A DNA stretch of 64,000 nt from positions 1-64,000 of the forward strand of contig WRAH01000011.1 of NCBI GenBank assembly GCA_009780315.1, written 5' to 3'. A program made the translations under genes and the position numbers. Below the pieces are notes generated by a model. That model worked only from the letters and a program-made list of their open reading frames with translations, ran no database searches and had not been told where the DNA came from. This document shows, in pieces, positions 10,311-52,040 of the stretch; position 1 is the first letter of the stretch; the number at the start of each line of letters is the position of its first letter. This stretch comes from Defluviitaleaceae bacterium. GTDB taxonomy: Bacteria > Bacillota > Clostridia > Lachnospirales > WQUN01.

Positions 10311-13300
10311 ATGAAAGCAACGATTACAAAAGGTGCAATTTTAAGCCTAAGTTCAAATGCTGATGTTTTTGAGCGCGGAGAACGGTATTATAGAGACGGA
10401 AAACTACTTTCCTTTAATGAAGTAGACGGCGAAGATGGAAATTTAGTTATTCGTGCCAGTGTTGAAGGCAATTATAAAAATTATGAAGTATCATTAAAGC
10501 TAGATGACGCAGGTGCGTTGTCTAGCTTTTCATGTTCTTGTGAAAGTCATAGTATCTGGCGTGGGGCATGTAAACATGTTGTTGCTGTGCTTTTTGCATA
10601 CATAGAAGGACATGCTCGTATGTTTTCTGCGGAAAAAATGCGTCGCCATGTCCATGACCTTACAAATAATTTGGAAAGAATCATATATGACGGCATTGAT
10701 GAATCTTTTGCTCTGCCCTCTCAAGCTGTAGAAGGCCCTTTATTAAAATTTATACCTGTCATTCATGTGAATGGTCAACGGGGCGTTTATCTGACTTTTA
10801 CAGTAGGCTATGGGCGTATGTATGTTGTAAAAAGTATATCCAGCTTTGTAAAAAGCATTAAAAATGCTGAAACAGTGACTTATGGGCAAGGGCTTGCTTT
10901 TGTCCATCGCCGTGAATTGTTTGACGAAGTCTCCCAGCAATTGATTGATTTTGTCTCTCACGAAGATGATATGTATTTGGAGATAAGTAAACGGTTGAGT
11001 CGTCAGTTTCAATTTGCACATCATCCCCTTGTAACCAGAGAACTTAGTTTGACACAACGCAATATAGATTCGTTTTTTAATATTTTTATTGGTCAACAAC
11101 TAGAATGTGATTCAGAGTTTGGTCAACATCTTCAACTAATAGACGGGTATCCACCTTGTCATTTAAAGGTACGCCATCTTCCTGCCGGAACGGTCGTTGA
11201 AGCCGCCCCCTTTCCCCATTATGCTTTGGTTGGAGATAAATACCACTATGTTATTGCCGAAGGTGGATTATATCGTTTGCCAAAGGCAGATGGTATGCTG
11301 TTAGGCGCATTATTAAAAGCCATTGACGATACCCACACAAGGGAAATTTTAATCAGCGGGAACGACCAACACCGCTTCTTGGTTGCCATTTTACCGCAAT
11401 TTAGCAAAATGGGTCTTGTGGAAGATGTAGACGGCGATGTACCCACAGGTGAAGTCGTAAAACTAAGTGCAAGAATGTACTTTGATGCTGAAGGCAAAGA
11501 TGTTATAGGGCGATTAGAGTATCATTATGGTGATTTTGTTATTGATGCAATGGATGCTTCAACAGGAGAAAATGCAGATTTTATACGTGATATCGTCGTA
11601 GAATATACCTTGCGTCGCCGCTTAACTGCTGTTGGATTTTTTGAAGATAACTTAAAAAAAGTTTTTCGTATTGTTGGCAATGATTTAATTTATGCCTTCT
11701 TACATCCAAGCGAACTATTCCCCCCAGGCATAGAAACATTGCGGGATGTTGCAGATGTTTTTGTTAGCGAAGACTTGCAAAAAAAGACCATCCGCGCACA
11801 ATCTCCTAAAATTGGTTTGAGACTCACAGGGGATTTATTAAAAGTATCGTTGGAAGACTCGGGCTATGATATTGGTGAGCTTTTAGAAGCACTCGAAGCT
11901 TACCGCACACGCAAAAAGTTTTTCCGTTTAAAAGACGGCAGATTCTTGTCACTTAACGATGAAAATATTACTGCCGCCGCAGGGTTTTTAGATGCTTTAG
12001 ACATCACTAGAAAAGAAATAAAGGGGAAATCTGCAAATATTCCAGCCTATCGTGCATTATATGTAGATGAATTAACCCGTTCAGACACCATGATTTCTAC
12101 ACATACCTTGAAACGTGACGAGGCGTTTGAAAGCTTACTATCTCACTTTCAAGATAATACAGCTTTGGGTTTTAAAGTGCCAAAGGGACTTGTAAACATC
12201 CTGCGTAAATATCAAAAAACAGGGTATATTTGGCTTAAAACCTTATCCCATTACGGTTTTGGGGGAATTTTAGCAGATGATATGGGGCTTGGCAAAACAT
12301 TGCAAATTATCGCTTTGCTTGCCAGTGAACGCAAGCAAAACATACGTTCAATCGTTATTGCACCAACATCTTTGCTGTATAACTGGGAAAATGAATTTAT
12401 AAAATTTGCACCACAGTTAACCACTCAAGTGATTTCTGGTTTTCCTGAAAAACGGCGTGAACTTTTGAAAACCTCAGATGTAGATGTTTTTATTACAACA
12501 TATGACATGCTAAAGCGAGACTTTGATTACTATAGGGATATTGAGTTTGCATACATTATTGCTGACGAAGCACAAAATATCAAAAACCCTAGCACTCAAG
12601 CGTCTAAGAGCATAAAAGCACTCAAAGGCCGTGTGCGTTTTGCACTTACAGGTACACCCATTGAAAATACACTGACAGAACTTTGGTCGATTTTTGACTT
12701 TATTATGCCGGGGTATTTATATACAGCACATAAATTTGGAAAAGCTTATGAAACCCCCATTATAAAGCATGGCAATACTCAAGTGGCGGCAAAACTTCGC
12801 CAGCAAATCGCACCATTTGTTTTGCGTCGAATCAAAGAAAATGTACTCAAAGAACTGCCTGAAAAAACGGAAACTACACTTCCGGCAGAATTAAATCCCG
12901 AGCAGAAAAAAATATATCAAGCAAATTTATTAGAAGCCATTGGTGCGCTGGATGATATGGTTGCCAATGATTCTTTTACAGATAATCGAATGCGTATGCT
13001 TGCAAGACTAACACGTTTACGGCAAATCTGTTGCCATCCTGCTTTGTTTTTAGATGAATATGAAGGGGGAAGCGGTAAACTTACCCTAACACTTGAAACA
13101 ATCCAACTTGCACTAGATTCTAAACATCGGGTACTGTTATTTTCTCAATTTACAGGAATGCTTGGGCTGATTCAAAAAGCTTTAGATTCCGCAGAAATAA
13201 CCCAAAGAAATGGTGAACCTGCGACGTATTTCTATCTTGATGGTGCGACAAAAGCAAAAGAGCGGATGGAGATGACAGAGCGGTTTAATGCAGGTGAAAA

Positions 13301-37228: not shown

Positions 37229-37382
37229 TGGATAATCGTAAAATTTTCCTATCTCCTTTGAATCTCTCCCTGTGGACGAACGTGGGTGTTAATGGTTAAA
37301 AAGTACTAAGATTGCGGCTAACTTCATTCGCTGTTGTTGCGAGGGAATGAATAAAACTAGTAAAGTTGAACGAGGGGTTTAC

Positions 37383-39845
37383 ATGAATACCATGAACAAC
37401 ATTATGTTAGAGAGAAGTGGTCTTCTTCGCATATTTAAGGGACTTGAAAAATATAAAGTAGTAGTTGTAAGCGCACCTGCGGGCTATGGTAAAACGGTAG
37501 CTGTAACGCAATGGTTGAGTAAAGATGACCGTGCTAATGCCATTTGCTACACAGATGAGTACGATAATATTCTTTCCTATTTCTGTAGACGCTTTTGTAC
37601 TGCACTTCGTGATTGCCAACCACAAAACCAAACGCTTATTGATATTATTTCTCATGAGTTTTTTCAAAACGCTCCTGACGAGTTTTCTTTACGTGCTATC
37701 TCTGCTCTTTCCGAGAAAGAGCAGGCGGTACTTGTTATAGACGATTTACACCTTATTCATAACGATGCAATCTTGAAACTTCTGCTTGTTTTCATTAAGC
37801 GTTTGCCAGAGAATTTTCAAGTTGTTTTGATTAGCCGTCACGATTTGCCGCATGATCTTTCTGAATTATGGCTGAAAGGTCAGATTGGTCGTGTCAATGC
37901 AGAACAGCTACTATTTAACAATAAGGACATAATGGCTCTCTACAAAAAGCGGGGCGGTCAAATCACAAATAAGCAAGCCGAAAAGATTAGCAGGCAGACT
38001 CATGGTTGGGCAATTGGGATTAACGCTTATTTATTATCCAATGGCGATTTGTCCGAACAAGTATATAATTATTTGGAGGACTTCATTCAGATAAATATAT
38101 GGGAAAAGTGGGACAAAAAAACACGCAACTTTATGATTTGTACAGCAAACTTGCGTGAGCTAGTTCCTTCTTTGTGTGAAGCATTAACAGGCTTAGATAA
38201 CAGCGATAAATTTCTCAAAGAGCTTGTGCAAAAAGGAGCTTTCATTACTCGATTACAAAGAGGGGCTTACCGCTATCACCATCTATTTCAACAATTTCTT
38301 ATGCAAATGGCTGGGGAGCGTGGCGAGGAATTTCTACAGTCCCTTGTAGAAAAAGAAGGATATTGGTATTTATCACAAAATGATTTCTATAACGCCATTG
38401 ATTGCTTTATCCGATGCAAAAACTACGATGGCATAATGAAGTGCAATGATTTATTGACTATTTCTGACCATAATCTTTTTTCTATCGAAAGGCTCTTGCC
38501 CATAATAAAGCACCCCGAAGTGGTTGCTTCTGCCGAAAAATATCCACAGCTAACCTTTCTAATGGCTTTGTTTGCTTTCGCAGAAGGGCAAGCTGAAACT
38601 GCAACTTCATTTATGGATATATTTTACGACAAATGCTCTGAGTATGCTTATAGTATTTTTTATATGAGACTGTTTGATTTTCGTATATCATTAAGCCAGA
38701 TTTTAAGTTGTATTAGCAAACCACTTACGAAGTTTGAGTATCTCATTCCAAACTGGACTGTATCCTTTCATATGCCGCTTCTCCACCGTGGAATAGTTGA
38801 CTTTTCAGAGATAGCCATTGGTGATGCATCTGAAAACATGAAAGATTTAATATTGAAGGTTGGTGGCTGGTTGTCGGGCGAAGTAACCTCTATGTCTGCA
38901 AGCACAATAATTGCAGGGCTGTACTATGAGCAAGGACAATTAGAAAAGGCTCATGAATATGCTTTGAAAGCAATCGTAGAGATAAAAAATCACTTTACGT
39001 CAGAATCAAAATTCTGTGCTATATCTACATTGGTGTATGTGTTAGATGCACTTGGGGAGACAAATGAAGCAACCACGGTTATAGGGTCTATATCAACAAT
39101 GATTGAAGCAGATAGAGCCTATCATCTGAGCAATAACTTTAATGCACTTATTATGCGTCGCAATCTTACTGCGGTCGATAAGAAGAATATGGAAGGCTGG
39201 ATTAAAACACAAATCATAGATAGCCCAACTTTATGGCGCATGTATAATGACTTTACCACATGCAGAGTTTTTATAGCGATTGGGAAATATGATTCTGCCC
39301 TTATTTTACTAAGGAAAGTGCTGAAAATTGCTAATGCTTACAATAGGGTATTGGATATTATTGAAGCACAGATTTTGATGGCGGTTGCTTACTGGATAAA
39401 GAAACGAAGATTTCAAAATGAAGCGTTTGAGTGTTTGGAAAATGCAGTTCGTGGGGCTTACCCTTATGGATATGTACAAATGTTTATAAATGAAGGTTCT
39501 ACCCTTGCTAGTATGCTGTATAAACTAAAAAAGCGTATTGAGCTACATGGGGGCGAGGATGAAAAATTTATCAGCTTTATCAAAATGCTATATTTTGAAA
39601 CCAGAGACAATATAAATGATGGGCTAACAAACGAATCAGAAAAAGTTTCCTTAAAATTTACAGATAAGCAAAAAGAGGTAATGTTTTTGCTTTGTGAGGG
39701 TAAAAGCTACAGGGAAATCGCCAACACTTTAGGAATAAAACAGACAACGCTCCGCTCTCGTATCGAACTGATTTATAGTAAGCTAGAGGTATCAAACGTA
39801 ATAGATGCGGTATCAAAGGCAAAAGCAATGGGTTTGTTAAAATAA
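37383..39845 (+). CDS. MalT-like LuxR-family transcriptional activator
   Basis: Large STAND-type regulator of about 820 aa. The N-terminal NTPase has Walker A APAGYGKTVA near residue 32 and Walker B AVLVIDDLHLI near 118, followed by a winged region and a helical TPR-like sensor region (about residues 330-730). The C-terminal LuxR HTH is KQKEVMFLLCEGKSYREIA, then LGIKQTTLRSRIELIYSKL. MalT itself binds ATP and an inducer and activates promoters lacking a good -35. ATG 37383 is chosen because GAGGGG sits 7 nt before it, inside the longer frame opening at 37347. Two nearby promoters share an identical block and spacing and are likely targets. The effector is unknown. Confidence 0.9.
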   Translation: MNTMNNIMLERSGLLRIFKGLEKYKVVVVSAPAGYGKTVAVTQWLSKDDRANAICYTDEYDNILSYFCRRFCTALRDCQPQNQTLIDIISHEFFQNAPDEFSLRAISALSEKEQAVLVIDDLHLIHNDAILKLLLVFIKRLPENFQVVLISRHDLPHDLSELWLKGQIGRVNAEQLLFNNKDIMALYKKRGGQITNKQAEKISRQTHGWAIGINAYLLSNGDLSEQVYNYLEDFIQINIWEKWDKKTRNFMICTANLRELVPSLCEALTGLDNSDKFLKELVQKGAFITRLQRGAYRYHHLFQQFLMQMAGERGEEFLQSLVEKEGYWYLSQNDFYNAIDCFIRCKNYDGIMKCNDLLTISDHNLFSIERLLPIIKHPEVVASAEKYPQLTFLMALFAFAEGQAETATSFMDIFYDKCSEYAYSIFYMRLFDFRISLSQILSCISKPLTKFEYLIPNWTVSFHMPLLHRGIVDFSEIAIGDASENMKDLILKVGGWLSGEVTSMSASTIIAGLYYEQGQLEKAHEYALKAIVEIKNHFTSESKFCAISTLVYVLDALGETNEATTVIGSISTMIEADRAYHLSNNFNALIMRRNLTAVDKKNMEGWIKTQIIDSPTLWRMYNDFTTCRVFIAIGKYDSALILLRKVLKIANAYNRVLDIIEAQILMAVAYWIKKRRFQNEAFECLENAVRGAYPYGYVQMFINEGSTLASMLYKLKKRIELHGGEDEKFISFIKMLYFETRDNINDGLTNESEKVSLKFTDKQKEVMFLLCEGKSYREIANTLGIKQTTLRSRIELIYSKLEVSNVIDAVSKAKAMGLLK

Positions 39846-39862
39846 TTAAAATGGCAACAAAG

Positions 39863-39899
39863 AAGTGTCTGCTGTAAATAAAGTGGACGCTTTTTTTAT
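39863..39899 (+). terminator. Probable terminator after the MalT-like gene
   Basis: AGTGTC (39864-39869) pairs with GACGCT (39886-39891) allowing a G-T pair, followed by seven T residues. The stem is short but the T-tract is good. Confidence 0.5.
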
Positions 39900-39932: not shown

Positions 39933-39989
39933 TTCATAAAATATACCCTCATGATGCTACTAGTAGACTATTGGTCTCTATGCTAGAAT
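39933..39989 (+). promoter_or_regulatory. Candidate MalT-like-dependent promoter, copy 1
   Basis: TTCATAAAATATACCCTC at 39933-39950 is identical to a block at 44284-44301. In both places TATGCTA follows after exactly 28 bases (here 39979-39985), giving an extended -10 TGCTAGAAT with no good -35. About 22 of the 35 bases from the end of the block through the -10 also match. The GAGGGTAT on the other strand loosely recalls a MalT box. It drives the YdcF-type gene. Assignment to the LuxR protein next door is inferred. Confidence 0.6.
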
Positions 39990-40214
39990 TGATATGTGTA
40001 TGCTATCACTCCATTTATTTTGTACATAGTAGATAAAAAAACAAAGGAAAAAAACTCCAAAGTGTCCAAAGAAAACATAAAAAATTGCAAAGGGGTTTGA
40101 CAAAATGGAAGCGATGCAAATGATGAATTTAGCTATCTAACCAGTGAAGTTGTGATTACAGAGCTATAAAATCAACATCAAGTAAAAATCTTTATATATG
40201 GATGAGGTACTAAG
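39990..40214 (+). other. Long leader with possible coding remnant before the YdcF-type gene
   Basis: The 5' leader of the YdcF-type gene is about 220 nt. Within it 40111-40170 can be read as a short open stretch ending SYLTSEVVITEL-stop, without a start codon or ribosome binding site, which looks like a decayed gene end. No terminator or known riboswitch was recognised here. Confidence 0.25.
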
Positions 40215-41282
40215 ATGCCGCCTTTATGGTTTGTGTTTATGACACCACTCTTTTTTGTTTTATTCATTTTTTCATATAGAATCAATAAAATGAGCCTTAT
40301 GCCAAGCTTTATGTTGAGTCTATTTTTCTTGTCAATTGTAGTAAGCATAATAAATTATCTATACCCCTATGTTTTTGATGGAGGAAATCTAGCACCGAGA
40401 ATTTTACTTATACTCATACTTATACCATTTGCTCTGATTGCACAATTAGGAGTATATGCCTTGATTGTCTTGCTACTCATAAATGCACGTACTGTACTAA
40501 AAAGAGAAAGAAAATCACTTGCTAATGGGCTGACTTTTATATTGGCACTTTGTTTGGTCTTTTATTTGATTATGACACATTTGGTAGAGGTAATTGAACT
40601 TCCTGCACAAATATCAATTTTGATTCGTTCACAAATATCAACTTTGATTCGTTCTGTATATTTGTTAATATTTTCTTGTTTTATTCATGTAACACATTAC
40701 ATTATGGCAATGATTCTATGTCAATTTTCACGACCAAAACTAAATCAGCAATATATTATCGTACACGGGAGTGGGTTAAATGATGGAAACGTTACGCCAT
40801 TGCTTGCTTGCCGCGTTGACAAAGCAATCAAGTTCTACAACAAACAAAAAGCGGTGAATAAAGCACCTAAGATAATTCTTTCAGGTGGACAAGGGTCGGA
40901 TGAATCAAGAACCGAAGCCGAAGCAATGATGGAATATGCCTGCTCAAAAGGTGTGCCTAGAGACGATATTATACTAGAGGCGAAATCGGAAACAACCCTA
41001 CAAAACATGATATTTTCTAAAGATATAATGGATAAGCACTCTGAAAACAATCCGTATAACTGCATTTTTGTGACAAGTAACTACCACCTTTTACGCACAG
41101 GGATGTACGCAAGAAGTGTAGGGTTAAACATTGATGGCATCGGTTCAAAAACGGCACTTTATTATTTGCCTAACGCCTTTATTCGCGAATATATTGCTTA
41201 TGTTGTTATGTATAAAAAACGTTATATTATACTGATTTCTATTGCATTTTTACTTGCGTTTACCATTTTGCAAGGTAGATAA
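40215..41282 (+). CDS. YdcF/SanA-like membrane protein (DUF218)
   Basis: 355-aa protein with about five hydrophobic helices in residues 1-175 and a final helix near 335-350, enclosing a DUF218 domain (about 178-330). That domain shows the family blocks YIIVHGSGLNDG, KIILSGGQGSDESRTEAEAM, SETTLQNMIFSKDIM and TSNYHLLRTGMYARSVGL. Family members such as SanA and YdcF are tied to envelope integrity; biochemical activity is not settled. GATGAGG precedes the ATG. Downstream lies mobile-element debris, so it is probably transcribed alone. Confidence 0.87.
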   Translation: MPPLWFVFMTPLFFVLFIFSYRINKMSLMPSFMLSLFFLSIVVSIINYLYPYVFDGGNLAPRILLILILIPFALIAQLGVYALIVLLLINARTVLKRERKSLANGLTFILALCLVFYLIMTHLVEVIELPAQISILIRSQISTLIRSVYLLIFSCFIHVTHYIMAMILCQFSRPKLNQQYIIVHGSGLNDGNVTPLLACRVDKAIKFYNKQKAVNKAPKIILSGGQGSDESRTEAEAMMEYACSKGVPRDDIILEAKSETTLQNMIFSKDIMDKHSENNPYNCIFVTSNYHLLRTGMYARSVGLNIDGIGSKTALYYLPNAFIREYIAYVVMYKKRYIILISIAFLLAFTILQGR

Positions 41283-41418
41283 TTTTACATAAGCTTATAG
41301 TTATTTCACATGTCTCCAGAATACCAAACAAAATCTGATGACGTTTGTCTGAATGTGGTTTGTAGTGGGCGAGATAAAGTTAACTGCAATTAAAGAAAAT
41401 GAAGTAAAAGAAGCGTCG

Positions 41419-41502
41419 AGGGCATAAAAAAGCTATTATTGCTATGGTGTTTCTTGCTTCGCAAGGCTATGACGTGTCTCCTATCACCAAAATCGCTGGA
41501 TA
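41419..41502 (+). pseudogene. Possible remnant of an IS110-type transposase end
   Basis: After a stop codon, the stretch reads KKRRGHKKAIIAMVFLASQGYDV and ends at TAA. KRRGHKKAIIA resembles the late conserved region of IS110/IS116-type transposases, while the rest does not follow the family well. No start, upstream domain or ends of an element were found. Weak evidence. Confidence 0.3.
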
Positions 41503-41761
41503 ATTTGTTTTTTGGGGTCTAACGTCAGGTAGCTTTTTTTGTGTGCAAATTTATACCGTGGTGCTTTCACACTTTAATCTCATTCAATAACAATCATCTA
41601 TTTCATAACATAATTTGACTTTCCACCCCAACCACCGAGCAAGCCCATAAATACAGTGTTTCCGTCTTGCAAATCTCGCCTTTGCCTTTTGTTTTGGTCT
41701 TTATTTGGTCAAGATTTCGTAGTTGGGGTTAGTCATATCTTCCACAGTTTACAGTAAACTA
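41503..41761. other. Non-coding debris between mobile-element remnants
   Basis: No gene, terminator with T-tract or known RNA was recognised here. The stretch lies between the possible transposase tail and the integrase tail and is presumably decayed mobile DNA. Confidence 0.4.
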
Positions 41762-41863
41762 TCACAAGTCAATCACGTTTGCTATTGCTTCCATTGCTCT
41801 TGTCTGTGCGCCGTTGAAAGCGTGGGAGTAAATCGAAAGAGTAGTTGCGCTGGCATTAAAGTG
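41762..41863 (-). pseudogene. C-terminal remnant of a tyrosine recombinase/integrase
   Basis: Read on the minus strand in another frame from the MFS gene, the DNA encodes RHFNASATTLSIYSHAFNG, then AQTRAMEAIANVIDL and a stop. This matches the end of Tn916/phage-type integrases, including the H near the motif LGHSxxxTTLxIYSHxF and the catalytic Tyr in IYSH. Nothing of the rest of the integrase is present; the MFS coding end runs into it. It marks an old integration or recombination junction. Confidence 0.65.
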
Positions 41864-43112
41864 TCGGAATGAACTCCTTTTCGACGATTTTTGCATTCAA
41901 AGCAATGATGATAGACATAATGCCTAAAATAATCAGTGCAACTCCGGGGGTTGTTGCAAATACGCTAAAGAGGATGCCGTGAAGAAAATCTCCAAGTGCA
42001 AACCCCAAAACACTAGACGAGATGGCAAGTCCCATGACTTTGCCCATAACATGCTGTGGTGTCTTTTCTCCTAAAAAGGAAAAGTATATAACAGAGTACA
42101 TAGTTAAGAATAATTGTGTTATAAAGAAACATGCAATCAATAAGATAAAACTCACTGCTTGACTCTCAAAAAACATCATGAGCATTCCTGTTATAGTGAT
42201 TATGAAACTTGGTATGAATAGTATTGTCCTGCTTGTACGGTGGCTTGCTTTTCCTTTTAGCATAGGTAAAAGGATTGCTGCCAATGTTCCACCAAACACC
42301 ACAAATCCTTGAGCAAGCCCAATCATATGCTCAGACATTTCCAAATAAGTAACCATTAAAGTTGGCACAGTAATTGTCATGCTAGTAATTACGGTAATAG
42401 CAAGGAAAAAAACAACGAAAATCATTTTTCCGACACTTCTGTTTTCCTTTGTTACAAAAATAATGCCACCTTTAATGTCCCCTAAAAGACCTGCAATAGG
42501 GTTGCCCTTATTTCCTGTTTGGCTGTCAGCCTGTTTCGGTTTGGGTATGCTAACAAAGATGTTAATTACTGATGCCAACACATAAAGAGCGGTAATGGCG
42601 ATTAAAAGTTCGGTTAAGCCACCGTTTTGCAATATAAAGCCACCGAGTATAGGTGCGCCTATTGATGAGATGTTCGTCAGCAAAACTGTAACCGAATTTG
42701 CCTTAACTAATTTATCTACAGGAACTAAAAAGGGGATAGACGCTTCTGACGTAGGCGAGATAAGGCTTTCAAACATAGAAACAAACATCATGATTAGCAA
42801 AATGACTATGACAATATGATTGGCAGGGTTAATAATGAAATAAATCGAAACGACGATTGCCGAAAGTAAATTCATGATTGCCAATATTTTTTTCTTGCTA
42901 AATTTATCGGTGAACGCACCGCCGATTGGGGAGAGAATAATTAGGGGTAGTGCCGATAGCGATAATACCATTCCCATTAAAGTAGGGTTGCCTGTTTCTA
43001 TTAAGATATAGAGTGGTAAAGCAAACCTAATTAGTGTTTTTGCGATTAGTTGCAGTTCTAAAGCAAGTACGAATGTTAGAAAATTTTTGTTCCATATGCT
43101 GTTGTGGTTCAT
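41856..43112 (-). CDS. MFS efflux transporter, macrolide-efflux-like
   Basis: Predicted 12-helix exporter of 418 aa of the MFS_3/Mef-like group. Motif A appears as GGAFTDKFSKKKIL (about residues 52-65), and the N-terminus NKNFLTFVLALELQLIAKTL fits the family. Export of a macrolide or related drug is plausible; the substrate is not proven by sequence. A longer open frame begins at 43235, but AAAGGAG just before ATG 43112 marks the real start, and the extra part overlaps an attenuator hairpin. The end is fused to integrase debris. The cargo-gene setting and attenuator indicate horizontal acquisition. Confidence 0.87.
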   Translation of the reverse strand: MNHNSIWNKNFLTFVLALELQLIAKTLIRFALPLYILIETGNPTLMGMVLSLSALPLIILSPIGGAFTDKFSKKKILAIMNLLSAIVVSIYFIINPANHIVIVILLIMMFVSMFESLISPTSEASIPFLVPVDKLVKANSVTVLLTNISSIGAPILGGFILQNGGLTELLIAITALYVLASVINIFVSIPKPKQADSQTGNKGNPIAGLLGDIKGGIIFVTKENRSVGKMIFVVFFLAITVITSMTITVPTLMVTYLEMSEHMIGLAQGFVVFGGTLAAILLPMLKGKASHRTSRTILFIPSFIITITGMLMMFFESQAVSFILLIACFFITQLFLTMYSVIYFSFLGEKTPQHVMGKVMGLAISSSVLGFALGDFLHGILFSVFATTPGVALIILGIMSIIIALNAKIVEKEFIPTL

Positions 43113-43164
43113 CGTTGTTTTTCTCCTTTTTTTACTGTCATATTTTGCATTGATTTTCCACAAC

Positions 43165-43235
43165 AAAAAAAGCTGTGGAAAGTGTTTTCCACAGCTTAAA
43201 AGCCAGTTGTCCTGTGAAAAACAAAAAACAATCAT
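43165..43235 (-). promoter_or_regulatory. Transcription attenuator and leader peptide before the MFS gene
   Basis: On the minus strand AAGCTGTGGAAA (43197-43186) pairs with TTTCCACAGCTT (43181-43170), followed by TTTTTTT: an intrinsic terminator about 55 nt before the MFS start. A leader reading frame begins at ATG 43235 (MIVFCFSQDNWLLSCGK...) and runs through this hairpin. Another hairpin ACCTG/CAGGT lies just upstream. The layout matches ribosome-stalling attenuators of macrolide and tetracycline resistance genes, so induction by a ribosome-targeting drug is inferred. Confidence 0.65.
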
Positions 43236-43321
43236 TTAATACACAACAACAAGACCTGAACTAGCAACAGGTTCTCTTGTTATTATGCTGTTAATGATTA
43301 TTTGCGTTTTCCACGTTTCAC

Positions 43322-43435
43322 TTACATTGCTGATTGTGCAATATCAAATGCGCCGGACTTAACCAACTCCTCTATTTCAATATAGTCGCATTGTATACTA
43401 ATTTTAGTTGTTTTGTCAAATTGGATGTGTAATTT
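43322..43435 (-). pseudogene. Short coding remnant upstream of the MFS leader
   Basis: An open stretch of 37 codons without a start reads HIQFDKTTKISIQ, then CDYIEIEELVKSGAF and ends QSAM-stop. It looks like the C-terminal tail of a lost gene; no family was recognised. The MFS promoter lies within it. Confidence 0.35.
43392..43419 (-). promoter_or_regulatory. Promoter of the MFS efflux gene
   Basis: On the minus strand TTGACA (43419-43414) is a consensus -35, followed after 16 bases by TATACA (43397-43392), or after 18 by TACAAT. Transcription would start near 43385 and produce a leader of about 270 nt containing the attenuator. Confidence 0.6.
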
Positions 43436-43537
43436 CTATTCCCCCACAATGTATGGCAGGTTTGCGTTTTCAGTAAATACACAAACTCAGGCGTTGGAAT
43501 GCTAAAGCACCCCCATTCCGTCAACTGCCCCACGCTT

Positions 43538-43556
43538 GGGTTTCGCCCAAACCCAT
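43538..43556. repeat. GGGTTT/AAACCC hairpin just after the MobC-like gene
   Basis: GGGTTT and AAACCC flank CGCCC (plus-strand reading), a perfect 6-bp stem with a 5-base loop, a few bases beyond the MobC-like stop. It could be part of a transfer origin or a weak terminator; there is no T-tract. Confidence 0.35.
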
Positions 43557-43561
43557 ATTAT

Positions 43562-43906
43562 TTATTCGCAAACCTCAACGCCTCTCGAAATCAATCCACG
43601 CACCATATCCCAATTTTCAGCCATTGTAGTCCTTATGCTCTCCACATCAGCAGTGTAAGCCGTACCGTCCATGTTATCAACGTGTCGTAATATCTTCTTG
43701 ATATTCACATCAATTTTCTGCAATTCTGCGGAAAGACTTTTAATCTCAGTGCAGTCCACGTTGACGATATACCCCTTTGTAGCCATTTGTCGTGCATACT
43801 CTCGAAAATTAGTCATGCTGATAGAGCGTATTTTTTCTTGAATAAATGCCTTTTCCTCTGCGGTTACTCGGAAAATAATTTGAATATTACGTTTACGATT
43901 TTCCAT
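43562..43906 (-). CDS. MobC-like plasmid/ICE mobilisation protein
   Basis: 114-aa protein resembling the relaxosome accessory MobC proteins of mobilisable elements in Firmicutes: a ribbon-helix-helix start (IQIIFRVTAEEKAFIQEKI), then MTNFREYARQMATKGYIVNVD and a helical tail with QKIDVNIKKILRHVDN. MobC helps the relaxase at the transfer origin. No relaxase gene follows, so it is a leftover of an integrative or mobilisable element. Upstream lie GGATA repeats. Confidence 0.75.
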   Translation of the reverse strand: MENRKRNIQIIFRVTAEEKAFIQEKIRSISMTNFREYARQMATKGYIVNVDCTEIKSLSAELQKIDVNIKKILRHVDNMDGTAYTADVESIRTTMAENWDMVRGLISRGVEVCE

Positions 43907-43924
43907 GTTTTTTTAACCCTTTCC

Positions 43925-44012
43925 ATTCCTATCCTATTCCAAAACCCTAAAACGTCTACATTGGAAAACCACAGGGGAATAAAGGATAGGATAGGATAAG
44001 ATAAAATAGGGT
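43925..44012. repeat. GGATA repeats and inverted repeat upstream of the MobC-like gene
   Basis: Three tandem GGATA units and decayed copies fill 43984-44012. TCCTATCCTATTCC at 43927-43940 is an inverted copy, giving a possible stem with the GGATAGGA region. Such sites upstream of mobC may be a transfer origin or a binding site for the RHH protein. Function inferred from position. Confidence 0.45.
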
Positions 44013-44283
44013 TTATATAGTAAGTATTTAATATATTAAGTCTTTTATTAAGTTATTTATTGCAGGTTGTTTTCCTACATGGGATTTCCCGATGCAGAAA
44101 GATTCCATATCGGATTTTAAGATTGTGGCACTTAGTAAGTTACTGAAATTTGCCTGTTATGGCTTGTGATTGCTTGTAGTTGCGTTGCGGAAATGCTGTG
44201 ATAGTGGGGGTTGTAGTTACTTGCTGTGAGTTAGTGGAAGTTGTCAACAGTCTTTATAAAATGAAAAAAATATTTTTCTCGAC
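44013..44283. other. Non-coding interval before the hydrolase promoter
   Basis: AT-rich at the left (44030-44060), then a more even stretch. No credible gene, terminator or RNA element was recognised. It probably contains the junction between mobile DNA and the hydrolase transcription unit. Confidence 0.4.
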
Positions 44284-44340
44284 TTCATAAAATATACCCT
44301 CTTAATGCTCTTATTGAATGATTGTCTTTTATGCTATCGT
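44284..44340 (+). promoter_or_regulatory. Candidate MalT-like-dependent promoter, copy 2
   Basis: TTCATAAAATATACCCTC at 44284-44301 repeats the block at 39933 exactly, with TATGCTA again 28 bases later (44330-44336) as an extended -10 (TGCTATCGT). No good -35 is present. It leads to the hydrolase lipoprotein gene with a leader of about 70 nt. Probably bound by the LuxR/MalT-like protein encoded at 37383. Confidence 0.6.
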
Positions 44341-44409
44341 AAATGAAATGCAATGAGTTGGAGATTTTTATTGGTACGCTTAACTTATAATTTCAAGGAG
44401 GATATTATA

Positions 44410-46080
44410 GTGAAAGGATTTTTTGCGTTATTATCAATCCTACTATTCGTAGCAGGCTTTACTGCCTGCGGCAGAAATGATGAAGAGACTAGTGTACCAA
44501 TACAAACGCTGGCTACAAGCAACATGGAATTTGCCTTAGCAAATGCCTCTAATATTACCGTGCATAGCTTTAGCTTAGGTACATACGGGCTTGGAGGCAT
44601 TTATTGGAATCCAGTTACCAACGAGTATATACCCACCGACATCCCAGCTCCTCTTGACGGAATTATAGCTGTTCCCGAAGGGTATGGGGCACATCCGCTA
44701 GTTGTGATTTTGCACGGAAACGTAGAGACAGATGATATAACCGACAGAGTGTATGCAGGGTTTGACTACTTAGTGCAGCAGCTTGCCGCAGAAGGTTATG
44801 TTGCAGTTAGTTTTAACATCATGGTTGATTTCGCTTTCGACGTTGAGATAGACGGCAGAACGATAACTGGTGAGTCTATAATGCATGATTGGGCATATAG
44901 TCTTTTAAATGAGCATTTAGAAGCTTTAAGTATGGCAAATGAGGGGTTAGAAACAGCCCATGGGCTTGATTTAACAGGGCGTATATTGATGAATCAAATT
45001 CATATGATTGGTCATTCAAGGGGTGGCATGATTGCAGATGCGTTCTACAGACATGACAGAGATGCAGGTATAGAGCGCATCCGCTCCATCACCCGCCTTG
45101 GAACGACAATAAACATTTTTGACTATCCTTATAATCACCCAAATATCCCAATTTCTATTTTAATGGCTGAACTTGACGGTGAGATTCTTACACTTGATGG
45201 ACAGATTGTTTTTGATGAAATTTTACAGCAATCTATCAATACTTCATTTGCTCAAATAACTTATTTGCAAGGGGCAAACCACGCTTTTTTCAATCGGTTT
45301 TTTGAAAATGACGACAGAGTATTTATAGTGGAAGAATTTGCAGATTTCTTTCTAAGACACCAAGATATTTGGTTAACAAGAGAAGAACAAGAGGCATTTG
45401 TAAAACACTATATAGCCGCTTTCTTATCTGTTGTAGCACAAGGCAATACACCCTTTTCAACTTTTGACCCAAGTGTGGCGCAGCCTACGACTATGTTTGG
45501 ATTTCCTGTCAGGGCATCTACTTACTTTCCTTCTGCTGAAAATATTGGAATCGCACAATTGCAAGGGTTAGGAAATGCAACTGTAGAAGCGTATGTGCAA
45601 AGATGGGGTAGCGGTGAATTGTTTTTTCACCCTATTTCCTTCATTGGGCAAGATGTGAGACATTTTACTTCCATCCGTTGGACAAGTACAGATGGCTCTG
45701 TTGCTGTAACACCACAAACAACTGATTTTTCAGGACACCAAGCTTTATCAATCTATGTAGCAGTGGATAGTTCTAACGAATTAAACCCTCAAGGTCAACC
45801 GCAATCTTTTAGCCTTGTATTGACAGATACATCAGGTACTGCACAAATCATCATCATCCCACCTGAAACAGGTGCGCTGTATTTCCACATCGGAGAAGAA
45901 GTCCCCGCTGGTGATATATTAAACTTTCCCACATGGAGAGGGTTTATGCCTGTTAGTGAATTGCGTGTACCTCTTTCATATTTTACGGATGTAAATTTGA
46001 ATGACATCGCAAGTATTACATTGCAGTTTGACCAAACATTATCTGGTGCAATCATGTTAGGAGAGGTATTTCTTAAATAA
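44410..46080 (+). CDS. Alpha/beta-hydrolase lipoprotein
   Basis: 556-aa predicted lipoprotein. The start is GTG 44410 after AAGGAGG, giving the signal peptide MKGFFALLSILLFVAGF and a lipobox GFTAC. The hydrolase domain (about residues 65-350) shows the oxyanion strand VVILHGNVE, the nucleophile elbow GHSRGG, the acid in ILMAELDGEI and the His in LQGANHAFF, a complete catalytic triad. The C-terminal 200 residues are beta-rich and may be a binding domain. Substrate unknown (ester, peptide or polysaccharide ester). A longer frame begins at 44353 but lacks the lipoprotein signal at its N-terminus. Confidence 0.85.
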   Translation: MKGFFALLSILLFVAGFTACGRNDEETSVPIQTLATSNMEFALANASNITVHSFSLGTYGLGGIYWNPVTNEYIPTDIPAPLDGIIAVPEGYGAHPLVVILHGNVETDDITDRVYAGFDYLVQQLAAEGYVAVSFNIMVDFAFDVEIDGRTITGESIMHDWAYSLLNEHLEALSMANEGLETAHGLDLTGRILMNQIHMIGHSRGGMIADAFYRHDRDAGIERIRSITRLGTTINIFDYPYNHPNIPISILMAELDGEILTLDGQIVFDEILQQSINTSFAQITYLQGANHAFFNRFFENDDRVFIVEEFADFFLRHQDIWLTREEQEAFVKHYIAAFLSVVAQGNTPFSTFDPSVAQPTTMFGFPVRASTYFPSAENIGIAQLQGLGNATVEAYVQRWGSGELFFHPISFIGQDVRHFTSIRWTSTDGSVAVTPQTTDFSGHQALSIYVAVDSSNELNPQGQPQSFSLVLTDTSGTAQIIIIPPETGALYFHIGEEVPAGDILNFPTWRGFMPVSELRVPLSYFTDVNLNDIASITLQFDQTLSGAIMLGEVFLK

Positions 46081-46154: not shown

Positions 46155-49067
46155 ATGAGATATTTAAGTTCTGGAAAAGGTTAGATAGCTGGATTTGTGC
46201 TGATAATTATTTTGCCAATCATTATGACAATAATCAGCGGATTAAGCATTACAACGGTGAATAACCAGTATATATATGTGCTTGATTTTCCATATGTCAG
46301 ATCCCTTATTTTAAGCGACATAGAAGTTAATATGATGGACGCACGCCGTTCCATGGCTAGGGCTTCGATGTATGCCAGTGACCTTGATGACCAAGGTTTT
46401 ATAAGACAATTTGAAATTGATATACACGCAGACCATGTTCACAATCTAAGCTTGGAAGCAGCATTGCTCCTTAGCCAATTTAGGGAATCATTATTAGCTG
46501 ACCCGCTAATGAACTCGGAAAATGCTCATATTCAAATGCTTAGAGTTGACATGCTTGAAGCAACGATTAACCGATACTACAGCTATATTGAAGATGCTAT
46601 GGCTGAGGCACGGTTAGGCGACACTGATAGTGCAATAATCATAATGCGTAGAGGGATGAACACAGCAGAAGAAGCTTACGAACACTTTATTTATTTAATG
46701 CAATCAACGGATGAGTATATATATGATATTAGAAGCCGCCTAACTGGTATAGCTCAAAATACAATTACTACGCTCACAATCACTGCTGTAATCGGAGTTA
46801 TCATTATGCTATTGCTTGCATTTGGTGTTTATAGAATCATTGCAGCAGAGTTTAGAGAAGAGAATAAACGACTGAAATTCATGTTCGATAATATGCCTAT
46901 TATGGTCACTATAATAGATTCTAATATAAGTGTCGTTGATTGCAATGATGAAGTATTAAAGAAACTGAAACTATCTGATAAAAAAGAGTATATCAACAGT
47001 TTTTCAAAGTATTTTTCTGAATTTCAAGAGAATGGTAAGCCATCTAAAGAAAAGGTAATAGAAAATATTAGGGAAGCCTTTACGAAAAAATCAATGGGCT
47101 TTGAGTGGTTACACAAAGATGCGAATGACAACATACTACCAGTAGAAGTGTATGGCGTGACCACTTTATACAAAGGCAAGAAAGTGCTAGTTGCATATTC
47201 AATTGATATAACACGCATAAAGGAATCCCAAAAAGAACACATGGAGCATCAACGCAAAGCTATCATTGCAGAAGAGAACAATCAGGCAAAGACACGCTTT
47301 TTAGCAACCATGAGCCACGAGATACGCACACCACTTACAGCAATATTGGGGATTTCAGAAATTCAGTTGCAAAATCAAAGCTTGAATATTGAAGTGGAGG
47401 AAGCATTTCTTAAAATCAATGATTCCGCTGACATATTATTGAAAATTATAAACGATATACTTGATATATCAAAAATTGAGGCAGGCAAAATGGAGCTTAT
47501 CACTGTACGATATGAAGTTGCCAGCCTTGTCACAGATACTATCCAGATTCACTTAGTTTACTTAGGCAGTAAACGTATTCAATTTGAAGTCAATGCAGAT
47601 GAAAACATGCCAGCATATCTATTGGGTGATGACCTGCGTTTGAAGCAAATCATCAATAATCTTCTTTCTAATGCTTTTAAATATACCAAACAAGGCAAAG
47701 TTGCCTTTTGCATGTCTTTCGATAACTTGGACAGTGATAGTGAAGATACTGTGAGCCTGATAATAAAAGTGTCTGACACAGGTATAGGTATGAGCAAACA
47801 CCAACTTGAAGCGTTGGATGGCGATTACGTCCGTTTCCACGAAGAAGCTGACCGATTTACAGGTGGCACAGGGCTGGGTCTGTCCATTGTATATAAAATG
47901 ATTAAACTTATGAACGGCAAGATAGATATAGAAAGTGAAGTGGGCATTGGTACTACTGTGACATTGCATATACCTCAAAAGGTTTCTGGTACAGAAAAGC
48001 TTGGCTATGAAACTGCCGAAAATTTCCGCAGATTTGATGAAAACACATTGTCTAAAAGAAGAAAGTTGGACTTTGTGCCAGAGCCTATGCCGTATGGCTC
48101 TGTGCTAGTCGTTGATGATATTGATACGAACCTTTATGTTGCCAAGGGGCTTATGAATTTTTATAACTTGAATATTGAAACGGCTGACAGCGGATATAAA
48201 GCCATTGAAAAAGTAAAAGAAGGTAGGGTATATGACATTATATTTATGGATCACATGATGCCTAGCCTAAACGGCATAGAAACCACCAAGATAATACGGA
48301 GTCTTGGATATAACGAGCCTATCGTTGCCCTTACCGCCAATGCACTTATAGGGCAAGCTGAAGAATTTATTAAAAACAGATTTGACGGATTTATTTCTAA
48401 ACCCATACAAAGTGCGTACTTAAATGCCATACTTAATAAATTTATCCGAGATAAACAGCCGCAGGAGGTATTGGAGAGGGCTAGAGCAGAGGCTTCAATT
48501 AAAAACGATAAATCATTAGCAAAAAATAAAGGTATGGATGATTTTTTGAGAAGTTCAGAGCTTTATGACACGGCATACAAAGATTTTGTACGCACTCAAA
48601 AAAATGCAATGAGTGATTTGCTTAATGCCATAGATTCAAACGACATTAAAACTGCACATCACATTGCACATACGCTAAAGGGAATAGCTGGAATTATTCA
48701 CGAAAATGTTTTTGAAACACTTGCGAGGAAAGTGGAAAATGCACTTCGGAATGGAAATATGCCAACGGAAATAAACGAACTAAGCAACGAGTTTGAAAAG
48801 GTATTAGAAAAAATTGAGTTACAACTACAGGTTGAAACAAAGCCTAAAGTCACAGTATCCATTTCGGATATAGACAGGGCGGAAATAGCTGTACTTTTTG
48901 ACAAACTGAAGGAACTCCTTGAATCAAAACGGGGTGCGGCTATTAACATGATAGACGAGCTTTTTAACATTCCTCAAACAGAGGATTTAATAACCCACAT
49001 TGAGGATTTAGCATTTGATCTCGCACTGGAGAGTCTAAGTCAATTAAGAAAAACATTGGAGGTATAG
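46155..49067 (+). CDS. Hybrid sensor histidine kinase with an in-frame TAG near the start
   Basis: Hybrid kinase of about 956 aa if started at GTG 46197. Order: helix, external helical domain (about 30-185), second helix (about 187-210), PAS-like domain (220-340), HisKA with ATMSHEIRTPLTA, HATPase_c with NNLLSNAFKY, DTGIGMS and GGTGLGLSIV, receiver with phospho-Asp in IIFMDHMMPSLNG, and an HPt domain with AHTLKGIAGII. A good ribosome binding site (ACAGGAG) and ATG lie at 46155 in the same frame, but codon 10 is TAG (46182-46184), interrupting MRYLSSGKG-stop-IAGFVLII. GTG 46197 has no clear ribosome binding site and cuts into the first helix. Thus either a recent nonsense mutation or an internal start. 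Domains downstream are intact. Confidence 0.75.
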
Positions 49068-49071
49068 ACCT

Positions 49072-49980
49072 ATGGCAGAACAACGAAGCATTTTAATAGT
49101 AGATGATACGCCTATGCAACTTAAAACATTGAGTAAAATGCTTTCATCTCAGTATGATGTGATATTAGCTCAAGGTGGAGAAGAAGGACTTAAATTAGCT
49201 TATGAAAACAATATTGATTTAATGTTGCTTGACTTAAATATGCCTGACTTATCAGGATTTGAAGTGTTATCCCACTTGAAAGCGTCCGAAAAAACAAAAG
49301 ACATCCCTGTTATTTTTATCACAGGTAGCGAATCCTATGAGGATGAGTTAGAAGCACTTTTACTTGGAGCGATTGATTTTATACGCAAACCTTTTGTTAA
49401 CGCAATTGTAAATTTACGGGTTGAGTTGCACATGAGATTGATTGAACAAATGAGGATTATCGAAAGGCACAGCCTTATTGATGGGCTTACAGGTGCGAAC
49501 AATCGCCGATGTTTCGATAAGGTTATTGAAAGAGAATGGCGTCGTGCTTTACGTGAAAAAGAATGGATTAGTATGTTATTTATAGACATAGATAAATTCA
49601 AAGTGTTTAACGATACGTATGGTCACTTAAATGGTGATGCTTGCTTGAAAGCTGTTGTAGACACTATGCAACATGTCGTCAAGCGTGGAGGTGACCATGT
49701 ATTCCGATGGGGTGGTGAAGAGTTTGCTGTTCTCTTGCCAAATACAGCTATCGAGGGAGCGATTATCGTAGCAGAAGAACTAAGAAAAGCAATCGCTGAA
49801 ACACCTATAAAATGCGATGACAAAAATACCTATGTGACAGTAAGTGTTGGTGTCGGAACTATCATCCCTGATAATCGAGATTATATAAAGGGGGTGGAAG
49901 TATTTTGTACAAAACTTGATAAAGCACTGTACCGAGCAAAAGAGAATGGGCGCAATCGTGTAGAACAAATCATCAAGTAG
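49072..49980 (+). CDS. Response regulator with diguanylate cyclase (GGDEF) domain
   Basis: 302-aa protein: receiver domain (1-125) with VDDTPMQL, phospho-Asp in LMLLDLNMPD and Lys in IRKPF; GGDEF domain (about 140-300) with the active GGEEF in FRWGGEEFAVLL. The product-inhibition I-site RGGD lies five residues before GGEEF. It should make cyclic di-GMP from GTP when phosphorylated. It begins 4 nt after the hybrid kinase, its likely phosphodonor through the HPt domain. Its stop overlaps the start frame of the next gene. Confidence 0.93.
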   Translation: MAEQRSILIVDDTPMQLKTLSKMLSSQYDVILAQGGEEGLKLAYENNIDLMLLDLNMPDLSGFEVLSHLKASEKTKDIPVIFITGSESYEDELEALLLGAIDFIRKPFVNAIVNLRVELHMRLIEQMRIIERHSLIDGLTGANNRRCFDKVIEREWRRALREKEWISMLFIDIDKFKVFNDTYGHLNGDACLKAVVDTMQHVVKRGGDHVFRWGGEEFAVLLPNTAIEGAIIVAEELRKAIAETPIKCDDKNTYVTVSVGVGTIIPDNRDYIKGVEVFCTKLDKALYRAKENGRNRVEQIIK

Positions 49981-50036
49981 TGATTGGAGATGGCAAGGAC
50001 TATATCATCTATAAAAAACAAGGAGGCGTTTCAATT

Positions 50037-51788
50037 ATGAAATTCAAAAAAATTATTCCAGCAGTTTTAGTATGCATTATGGTACTGTCTTTTATGCAAC
50101 CAATTAGTGCAATGGCTAATTATGCAGATGAGCAAAGTGTGGAAGCCACTAATGAAGCAGTGCTGCCACCCCAAGTTGTATTTATGAATGACCGTAACCA
50201 AAACTGGATTGATGACCTTAATCAATTTAAAGACGCAATACTTTCAAACCATCCACGTTTTTGGGATGAACAGGTAATTTTTATTCCAAGAGGGCTTGGT
50301 TCTGATGAAGCTGTTTTTATGGCTTGGAATGAACATCCTGTAAACATTGCTATTAGTGAAGCTTTTATAGCGCATATGGACGAGCTAATTTATTCTGTGC
50401 CAACCGCCAGCGACTTTGAGATTATGACAGGTATTCGTCAAGCCGTAGCACTTTTGGCAGATGGACATTTTAATCTGCATTGGCCTACGGCATTTGATTA
50501 TTATGGTGTACCTTTTGAATTTAGATGGTTTGGTTCTGTACTTGATGGTGGTTTTTATCTAATTGAAACAATCGAAGAACACGCTGTATATCTAAACAGT
50601 CGCCTAACGTACATAGACCAAACATCAATGGTTTATGTAATGGATGCTTTTTCTACTATAATGTCCCTTGAAAATATTTATGGTGCAATGGCATATATGC
50701 CAAGTGAACTTATAAACCCCACTACTTTGCACGCTTTAGGGCTTGCTCATAATGGTCTTACAACTTTTACATTTCAAAGCGCAAGTGGCGAGCAACATGA
50801 TGTCGTCATAGACCACCGCACACTTGTCCATGTCCCGCTGGATGTTGAAGCGCTGATAGCAAATGCACCAGACGATGCTGACTTTTATGACATTTTTCCT
50901 GAAATTGAGTCGGTAGAGTTTATCCACGGCAGAAACGAAGGCGAGCTGCCACCATTCTTACAATATTTGGGCAAAAATTTCTTTGAAGTTTTAGAAGATG
51001 GTATTCTATACATCAGGCTAGAAGCAATGATAGCTGTTGACAGTTGGGATGTTGTATTTGACGAAGATGGAAACGCTGTGATATCTCATGACGAAGACAA
51101 TTTTACTATAATACCCGCCGAAGATGTTATGTACTATTCGGCTTTATTCCAAGATATAGAATATATGGTTGTTGTGCGTCCAGAAGGCTTTGCAGTGCCT
51201 GATGATATGGTTGACGAGGAAGAAATCCATGATTTTCGTAGATTTAGTTGGGTTACAAATCCTATCATTGTAGAGCTTATTGAGTCAGGCGAAGTGACAT
51301 CTGTTATTGTGGACTTTAGGGGTAATTCAGGTGGCGACCCAGGTATGTTTTACGGCTTATTCAACTTTTTAGGCACAGCCTTGCCAGAAGGTCGATTGTT
51401 TACATTCTTTGACCAAGGCTCGTTCTCGGCTGCAACGATGGCACCCAACTACCTTGAATATTTTGGAGCAATCAGTCTTGGTATGCCTTTATCACAAAAT
51501 GTGATTTTTCATGGCTTTGGTGGCGGTGTAAATGAAGATATTGTAAGCCACCACGAACTTAGACATTCAGGGATTTTTCTATCAATACCCGATGCACTAT
51601 CTCATATAGATGAACCGTGGGCAAGGATAGACCTTTTGGGTATCACTTTAGAAAGTTTTATAGAAATGTTCCCTCTCATAGAATTTTATACGATACGCCC
51701 AGATATTCAAATCTATCACACAATCGAGCATTGGATTAACAACTATGACCCTTTACTTAGTCATGTAAGGGAATTGTTAGCATCTTAA
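50037..51788 (+). CDS. Exported S41-like (C-terminal processing peptidase-type) protein
   Basis: 583-aa exported protein. The signal peptide MKFKKIIPAVLVCIMVLSF ends near ISAMA-NY. In the C-terminal half, VTSVIVDFRGNSGGDPGMFY matches the S41 peptidase strand-turn motif, and DQGSFSAATMAPNYLEYF is the position of the family nucleophile Ser. Other S41 elements are weak, so activity is not assured. No PDZ domain was seen. ATG 50037 follows AAGGAGG; an upstream GTG at 49980 is less likely. Cotranscribed with the kinase and cyclase genes. Confidence 0.75.
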   Translation: MKFKKIIPAVLVCIMVLSFMQPISAMANYADEQSVEATNEAVLPPQVVFMNDRNQNWIDDLNQFKDAILSNHPRFWDEQVIFIPRGLGSDEAVFMAWNEHPVNIAISEAFIAHMDELIYSVPTASDFEIMTGIRQAVALLADGHFNLHWPTAFDYYGVPFEFRWFGSVLDGGFYLIETIEEHAVYLNSRLTYIDQTSMVYVMDAFSTIMSLENIYGAMAYMPSELINPTTLHALGLAHNGLTTFTFQSASGEQHDVVIDHRTLVHVPLDVEALIANAPDDADFYDIFPEIESVEFIHGRNEGELPPFLQYLGKNFFEVLEDGILYIRLEAMIAVDSWDVVFDEDGNAVISHDEDNFTIIPAEDVMYYSALFQDIEYMVVVRPEGFAVPDDMVDEEEIHDFRRFSWVTNPIIVELIESGEVTSVIVDFRGNSGGDPGMFYGLFNFLGTALPEGRLFTFFDQGSFSAATMAPNYLEYFGAISLGMPLSQNVIFHGFGGGVNEDIVSHHELRHSGIFLSIPDALSHIDEPWARIDLLGITLESFIEMFPLIEFYTIRPDIQIYHTIEHWINNYDPLLSHVRELLAS

Positions 51789-51924: not shown

Positions 51925-52040
51925 CAAACTGAGCAGGCGATAAACCTTTTATGGGGTTTGTGGGGCTGGGCCACAATGTGGCAGTGGATACTATATGGCG
52001 TATCTGCGGGACAGAAATATGTTCCGTAGGTGCGCTTTTT
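51925..52040 (+). ncRNA. NiCo (czcD) riboswitch with terminator
   Basis: The stretch matches the czcD/NiCo riboswitch consensus: AACTGAGCAGGCGATAAACC at the start, GGGGCTGGGCC in the middle, and GTATCTGCGGGACAG at the end. GTATCTGCGGGAC can pair with GTTCCGTAGGTGCGC to form an intrinsic terminator followed by TTTTT (51998-52040). Ligand binding would hold the GGATAC/GTATCT stem and release the gene. Known ligands of the class are Co2+ and Ni2+, with Fe2+ also proposed. The CDF exporter gene follows, as usual for this class. Confidence 0.88.

Follow-up and report, generated by a model that had tools for sequence, protein, structure and literature searches.

An 18-bp block, TTCATAAAATATACCCTC, present in two identical copies on the forward strand of the window (the whole stretch of 64,000 nucleotides analysed here) at 39933-39950 and 44284-44301, probably forms the core of a class II operator recognised by the MalT-like (STAND/LAL-type) LuxR activator encoded next to it and by the paralogs of that activator. 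This operator very probably marks an undescribed regulon comprising the LuxR neighbourhood and a few distant promoters, with sensors and surface proteins as its predicted products. As a local regulon of a MalT/LAL-type regulator it would be of a known kind, while the operator and the small regulon themselves appear undescribed in the literature searched; no description of the operator was found in those open-licence papers. An earlier note on this DNA had proposed just such an undescribed, activator-dependent regulon of the adjacent LuxR protein, and the linkage of site and regulator gene, at the level of sequence, lends it strong support both genome-wide and across species.

Both copies of the block were recovered where they had first been reported, and a search of the window allowing three or fewer mismatches returned three matches where shuffles averaged 0.11; the third of them, with 3 mismatches at 7856, lies within a coding ORF. 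The TATGCTA described 28 bases after the block is exact in both promoters (39979-39985 and 44330-44336); the accompanying count of 22 agreeing bases in 35 also holds, but takes in the seven TATGCTA bases, and the 28-base spacer alone agrees at 15 of 28 positions. Compared base by base, the two loci keep above-background identity only from some 10 bp ahead of the block to some 10 bp past the -10, and the region common to both is the size of a promoter with its operator, not that of a duplicated segment.

The source genome of the window, a 2.9-Mb draft in 73 contigs, was searched with the pattern drawn from the two window promoters, which at three or fewer mismatches found four further copies (two on contig C37, one each on C59 and C4) against 0.02 expected, the reversed-pattern control giving 0 matches. 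A seventh site, again on C37, has a 27-base gap and was the one own-genome site misread by a 59-position matrix with rigid spacing. The seven sites, spread over four contigs, each score 50-58 bits against a profile built from all of them; these scores are circular, the profile being made from the same seven sites, whereas the gap down to the next best score in the genome, 14.6, is not. Two of the three C37 sites have ATCATGAsGTTCTTAAT in common, differing here from the C11 sites.

Two islands are conserved over the seven sites, a 25-bp core and an extended -10, with surroundings near background. The core has the asymmetric, A-rich consensus AAAATATACCCTCwTGATGCTCTTA, and its window copies are predicted from sequence pattern and profile at 39938..39962 and 44289..44313 (forward strand). 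The second island, TATGC-TAnnnT, begins 27-28 bases past the CTC of the core, the spacing varying by 1-2 bp, and reads as a probable extended -10 (TG-n-TAnnnT); on the forward strand of the window it takes the form TATGC-TAGAAT at 39979..39989 and TATGC-TATCGT at 44330..44340, conserved over all seven own-genome sites. So read, it moves the -10 hexamer five bases downstream of its first placement, to TGC-TAGAAT (39984-39989) and TGC-TATCGT (44335-44340), a revision also made because the final T of the shifted hexamer is invariant over the sites of the genome. Transcription would then start near 39997 and 44347, with the predicted operator extending from about -59 to about -35 relative to the start. 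No usable -35 element is present; the poor -35 that had been remarked upon is borne out by 2 of 6 consensus bases at the 17-bp spacer position in both promoters. An operator at about -59 to -35 occupies the usual seat of a class II activator, and the sequence has the features of such a promoter, namely an operator at a poor -35 (2 of 6), a gap of 26-28 bp and an extended -10. Some sites show a half-site repeat on the lower strand, with AAGAG at intervals of about 9 bp, which was judged too variable to claim. The MalT box GGGGAKGAGG was also rejected as a component of the operators, the best matches reaching 6-7 of 10 positions and being equalled by 39 of 500 column shuffles.

The regulator gene (37347..39845, forward strand) stops at 39845, leaving 87 bp to the first block, in keeping with the distance of about 90 bp originally estimated. 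Its 832-aa product combines an N-terminal STAND-type NTPase (PF13401 above cut-off, residues 37-167), a MalT-like TPR region (PF17874, E 8.4e-27) and a C-terminal GerE-type HTH (PF00196 above cut-off, residues 771-824), and the P-loop APAGYGKT is present in the translated regulator sequences. Judged by this architecture, the protein is of the MalT/LAL kind; identity as a MalT orthologue was excluded, the NCBIfam MalT equivalog giving 237.9 bits against a cut-off of 537. Three intact MalT-like LuxR genes are found in the genome, that of the window and paralogs on C4 (74% identical) and C37 (67% identical), and each is followed by a predicted operator, at a distance of 95-305 nt from where the coding match ends. 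A terminator-like hairpin with a T-run, located by folding, lies between the window regulator gene and operator (approximately 39858..39897, forward strand), and terminator-like hairpins stand at the corresponding place behind the paralogs on C4 and C37. Between paralogs, the HTH shares 79-81% identity, while the arm and TPR regions fall to 52-57% in the C37 protein, suggesting conserved DNA reading and diverging sensing; set against three intact paralogs, the seven own-genome sites allow no one-to-one pairing of paralog and site. On C34, a fourth LuxR paralog survives as a broken N-terminal fragment (L018:1-694), with a degenerate operator core, TAAATATACCATCACAATTTTAATC, beside it at the contig end, the best match of its locus.

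For an out-of-sample test, LuxR homologues of relatives were gathered by protein similarity alone, and a two-part matrix trained on the window's genome only was run over both strands of 379 kb of LuxR-centred sequence. Exactly five matches scored at least 14 (genomes G001, G019, G100, G047 and G111), all five in the gap between a LuxR gene of the clade and its neighbour and oriented toward that neighbour; the LuxR homologues at these sites are 51-59% identical, and their hosts represent several genera and families of the order. For four of the five sites, all 200 shuffles of the site's own flank score lower, and the G047 site lies on the divergent side. The -10 reads TATGC-TAAAAT in G100 and TATGA-TAAAAT in G111, with gaps of 27 and 28, respectively; the operator half is weak in relatives other than G019 (at most 7 of about 33), the matches leaning on the -10. 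The exact core has three occurrences only in 38 family genomes, each directly after such a LuxR gene. The co-occurrence that the earlier note had proposed to look for in relatives was therefore seen in part, with site and LuxR gene paired in five species but about half of the other clade members lacking a site: none was found in the tested flank of the clade genes of G026, G035, G063 (two genes) and G092, so that part of the clade has probably altered its operator specificity, or else has its targets elsewhere. By the same criterion, no site was found for six LuxR proteins at 30-37% identity. The G019 protein, which has the best-kept site, does not have an HTH especially close to that of the window protein. 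The flank of a second G019 gene runs off its contig, as does that of the closest relative outside the genome, Defluviitaleaceae MAG Lab288P1bin92 (about 70%, 69-71% identity), whose contig ends inside the LuxR gene. Weak profile matches in other genomes were about as frequent as reversed-pattern controls, and six exact core matches in 392 genomes of the order occurred at about control frequency; neither set was counted as sites. Long GC-rich, tandem-like repeats separate the LuxR gene from the operator in G019 (L087:2590-2880).

The first predicted target, a YdcF/DUF218 membrane protein (40215..41282, forward strand), would carry a leader of about 218 nt and matches PF02698 (E 1.2e-28), confirming the YdcF-type protein expected behind the first promoter. 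The second promoter precedes a 575-aa lipoprotein (44411..46080, forward strand), for which a GTG start at 44411 after AAGGAGG is preferred over the mechanical ORF start at 44353; formerly termed a hydrolase lipoprotein, it shows only weak alpha/beta-hydrolase similarity, to the Chlorophyllase family (PF07224) below the Pfam cut-off. The kinase and cyclase genes named alongside it were confirmed by domain search as a hybrid histidine kinase with HisKA, HATPase, receiver and Hpt domains (46197..49067, forward strand) and a response regulator with a GGDEF domain (49072..49980, forward strand; PF00072, PF00990). The supposed S41 protease at 49980..51788 (forward strand), on the other hand, has no Pfam, NCBIfam or PDB match, and is listed as a 602-aa ORF without a recognised domain in domain searches. 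It is the last gene before a terminator-like hairpin (51997..52036, forward strand; a 17-pair stem followed by a T-run), where the second transcription unit, comprising lipoprotein, hybrid kinase, response regulator-GGDEF protein and 602-aa ORF, would end. Leaders longer than 200 nt are seen in two predicted target transcripts (39997-40215, and L012 near 10440-10670 on the minus strand), and in each of them a plausible ribosome-binding site is followed by a very short ORF. On the opposite strand, a segment at 41856-43906, lying between the two promoters that carry operators, contains an MFS transporter gene and a NikA-like (mobilisation) gene; it is possibly a mobile insertion that split one cluster.

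Elsewhere in the genome, the predicted targets on C37 are a lipoprotein, a copper-amine-oxidase-N protein, a response regulator-HD-GYP protein, a 126-aa protein and further lipoproteins, and those on C4 are a thioredoxin-like lipoprotein (TlpA) with a 4Fe-4S membrane protein. Behind the C59 site lies a hydrogenase-like gene interrupted by internal stops, and after it come genes for an intact LytTR-type regulator and a kinase. The hydrogenase-like gene (L011:2217-3190, minus strand) resembles an iron-only hydrogenase with Fe-S domains; its in-frame stops, of at least two kinds, give it the look of a gene in decay. In the relatives, the sites precede a rubrerythrin gene (G019), a chemoreceptor gene (G001), two consecutive receptor genes of which the first is a chemoreceptor (G100), genes for an Fe-S protein and a chemoreceptor (G111), and a divergent chemoreceptor gene (G047). 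Homology links the sensor region of the window kinase with the sensor regions of the chemoreceptors beside the C37, G019, G111 and G047 regulators. The theme first suggested, envelope functions joined to cyclic di-GMP, covers part of the list, other sites lying ahead of redox lipoproteins, an HD-GYP cluster and the broken hydrogenase-like gene and, in relatives, of chemoreceptors, rubrerythrin and an Fe-S protein; sensing and surface redox proteins are the better description of the targets.

Linkage is not binding, and a real operator might be bound by another regulator, the LuxR genes being merely neighbours of regulon members; response regulators and kinases are also encoded nearby. We regard this as unlikely, however, since the LuxR gene is the only gene common to the linked loci in six genomes, while the target beside it changes (YdcF, TlpA lipoprotein, rubrerythrin, chemoreceptors, Fe-S protein), and known MalT sites occupy a comparable position, just ahead of the -35 (PMC7567727). 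Descent provides another account, in which the copies are remnants of duplicated promoter segments rather than products of selection for the regulator: the regulators are paralogous, so the linked copies at least may derive from one LuxR-operator unit, and an A-rich stretch just upstream of both window blocks is loosely similar. Conservation of two islands amid flanks and spacer at background makes this very improbable, as do the C59 and C37 copies that are not next to a LuxR stop, and the persistence of copies across genera and families. Little credence is likewise given to an alternative sigma factor promoter or a repressor operator. Two conserved islands at fixed spacing would also be expected from a sigma factor, but here the upstream island extends over 25 bp and stops where a -35 would start, leaving it too far upstream to make the usual contact with sigma. 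The -10 is compatible with an ordinary extended -10, and the spacing of the islands is not strictly fixed, shifting by 1-2 bp; the poor -35 suits activation better than repression.

If the element is an operator of the MalT-like LuxR activators, the TPR sensor region would take up a ligand, and the ligand-bound regulator should then occupy some 25 bp between roughly -59 and -35. From there it would bring in RNA polymerase at a promoter that lacks a -35 but has an extended -10, 26-28 bp downstream. The local layout of regulator gene, terminator-like hairpin, operator and neighbouring target is seen at all three regulator genes of the genome, further predicted operators lying at distant promoters. 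More speculatively, and with real doubt, a lineage of MalT-like receptors in uncultured gut Clostridia could form a modular sensory network. Its duplicated regulators would use one operator grammar, with sites drifting to local specialisation, and would turn on chemoreceptors, c-di-GMP enzymes, surface redox proteins and kinases whose sensor regions are related, such that intracellular ligand sensing retunes outside sensing.

In the maltose regulons of Escherichia coli and Klebsiella, the MalT binding site overlaps the -35 region of activator-dependent promoters (PMC7567727); the regulator described here has the same protein architecture and a predicted site near the -35, but differs in its equivalog score below cut-off, the lack of a convincing GGGGAKGAGG box and its non-maltose targets. 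The best described parallel is found in Actinoplanes sp. SE50/110, where a MalT-like LuxR gene lies inside the cluster that its product activates, through a motif that many promoters share and that overlaps their -35 (a palindrome, TCATCC-5-GGATGA, at 17 starts of one region), and where maltose metabolism genes are not regulated (PMC7567727). The logic of a local regulon is the same, although operator and targets differ, with an asymmetric, A-rich predicted operator of 25 bp here, at seven promoters on four contigs and with three paralogous regulators. The Streptomyces LAL regulators SCO0877 and SCO7173 are large ATP-binding LuxR-family proteins of a poorly studied family (PMC3282765). The present regulator is of the same large ATP-binding LuxR type, in a different phylum and with different targets. 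We know of no operator in common with the Streptomyces proteins.

For one MalT-like/LAL clade of this poorly studied family (PMC3282765), from uncultured Clostridia, the analysis supplies a predicted binding site, promoter architecture and target list, the predictions being directly testable on two short DNA fragments. If true, they would connect the sensing of an intracellular ligand with chemoreceptors, kinases, c-di-GMP turnover and surface lipoproteins, and would offer a promoter grammar for finding other regulons of the family in metagenomes. LuxR homologues at a greater distance (36% identity) have an element that is related and more palindromic, TATACCmCCATGGkkACTTT (CCCCATGGGG), just upstream on the divergent strand (L027 near 1459, L026 near 1400 and L042 near 1430, all minus strand), and in G011 the palindromic element stands upstream of a response regulator gene.
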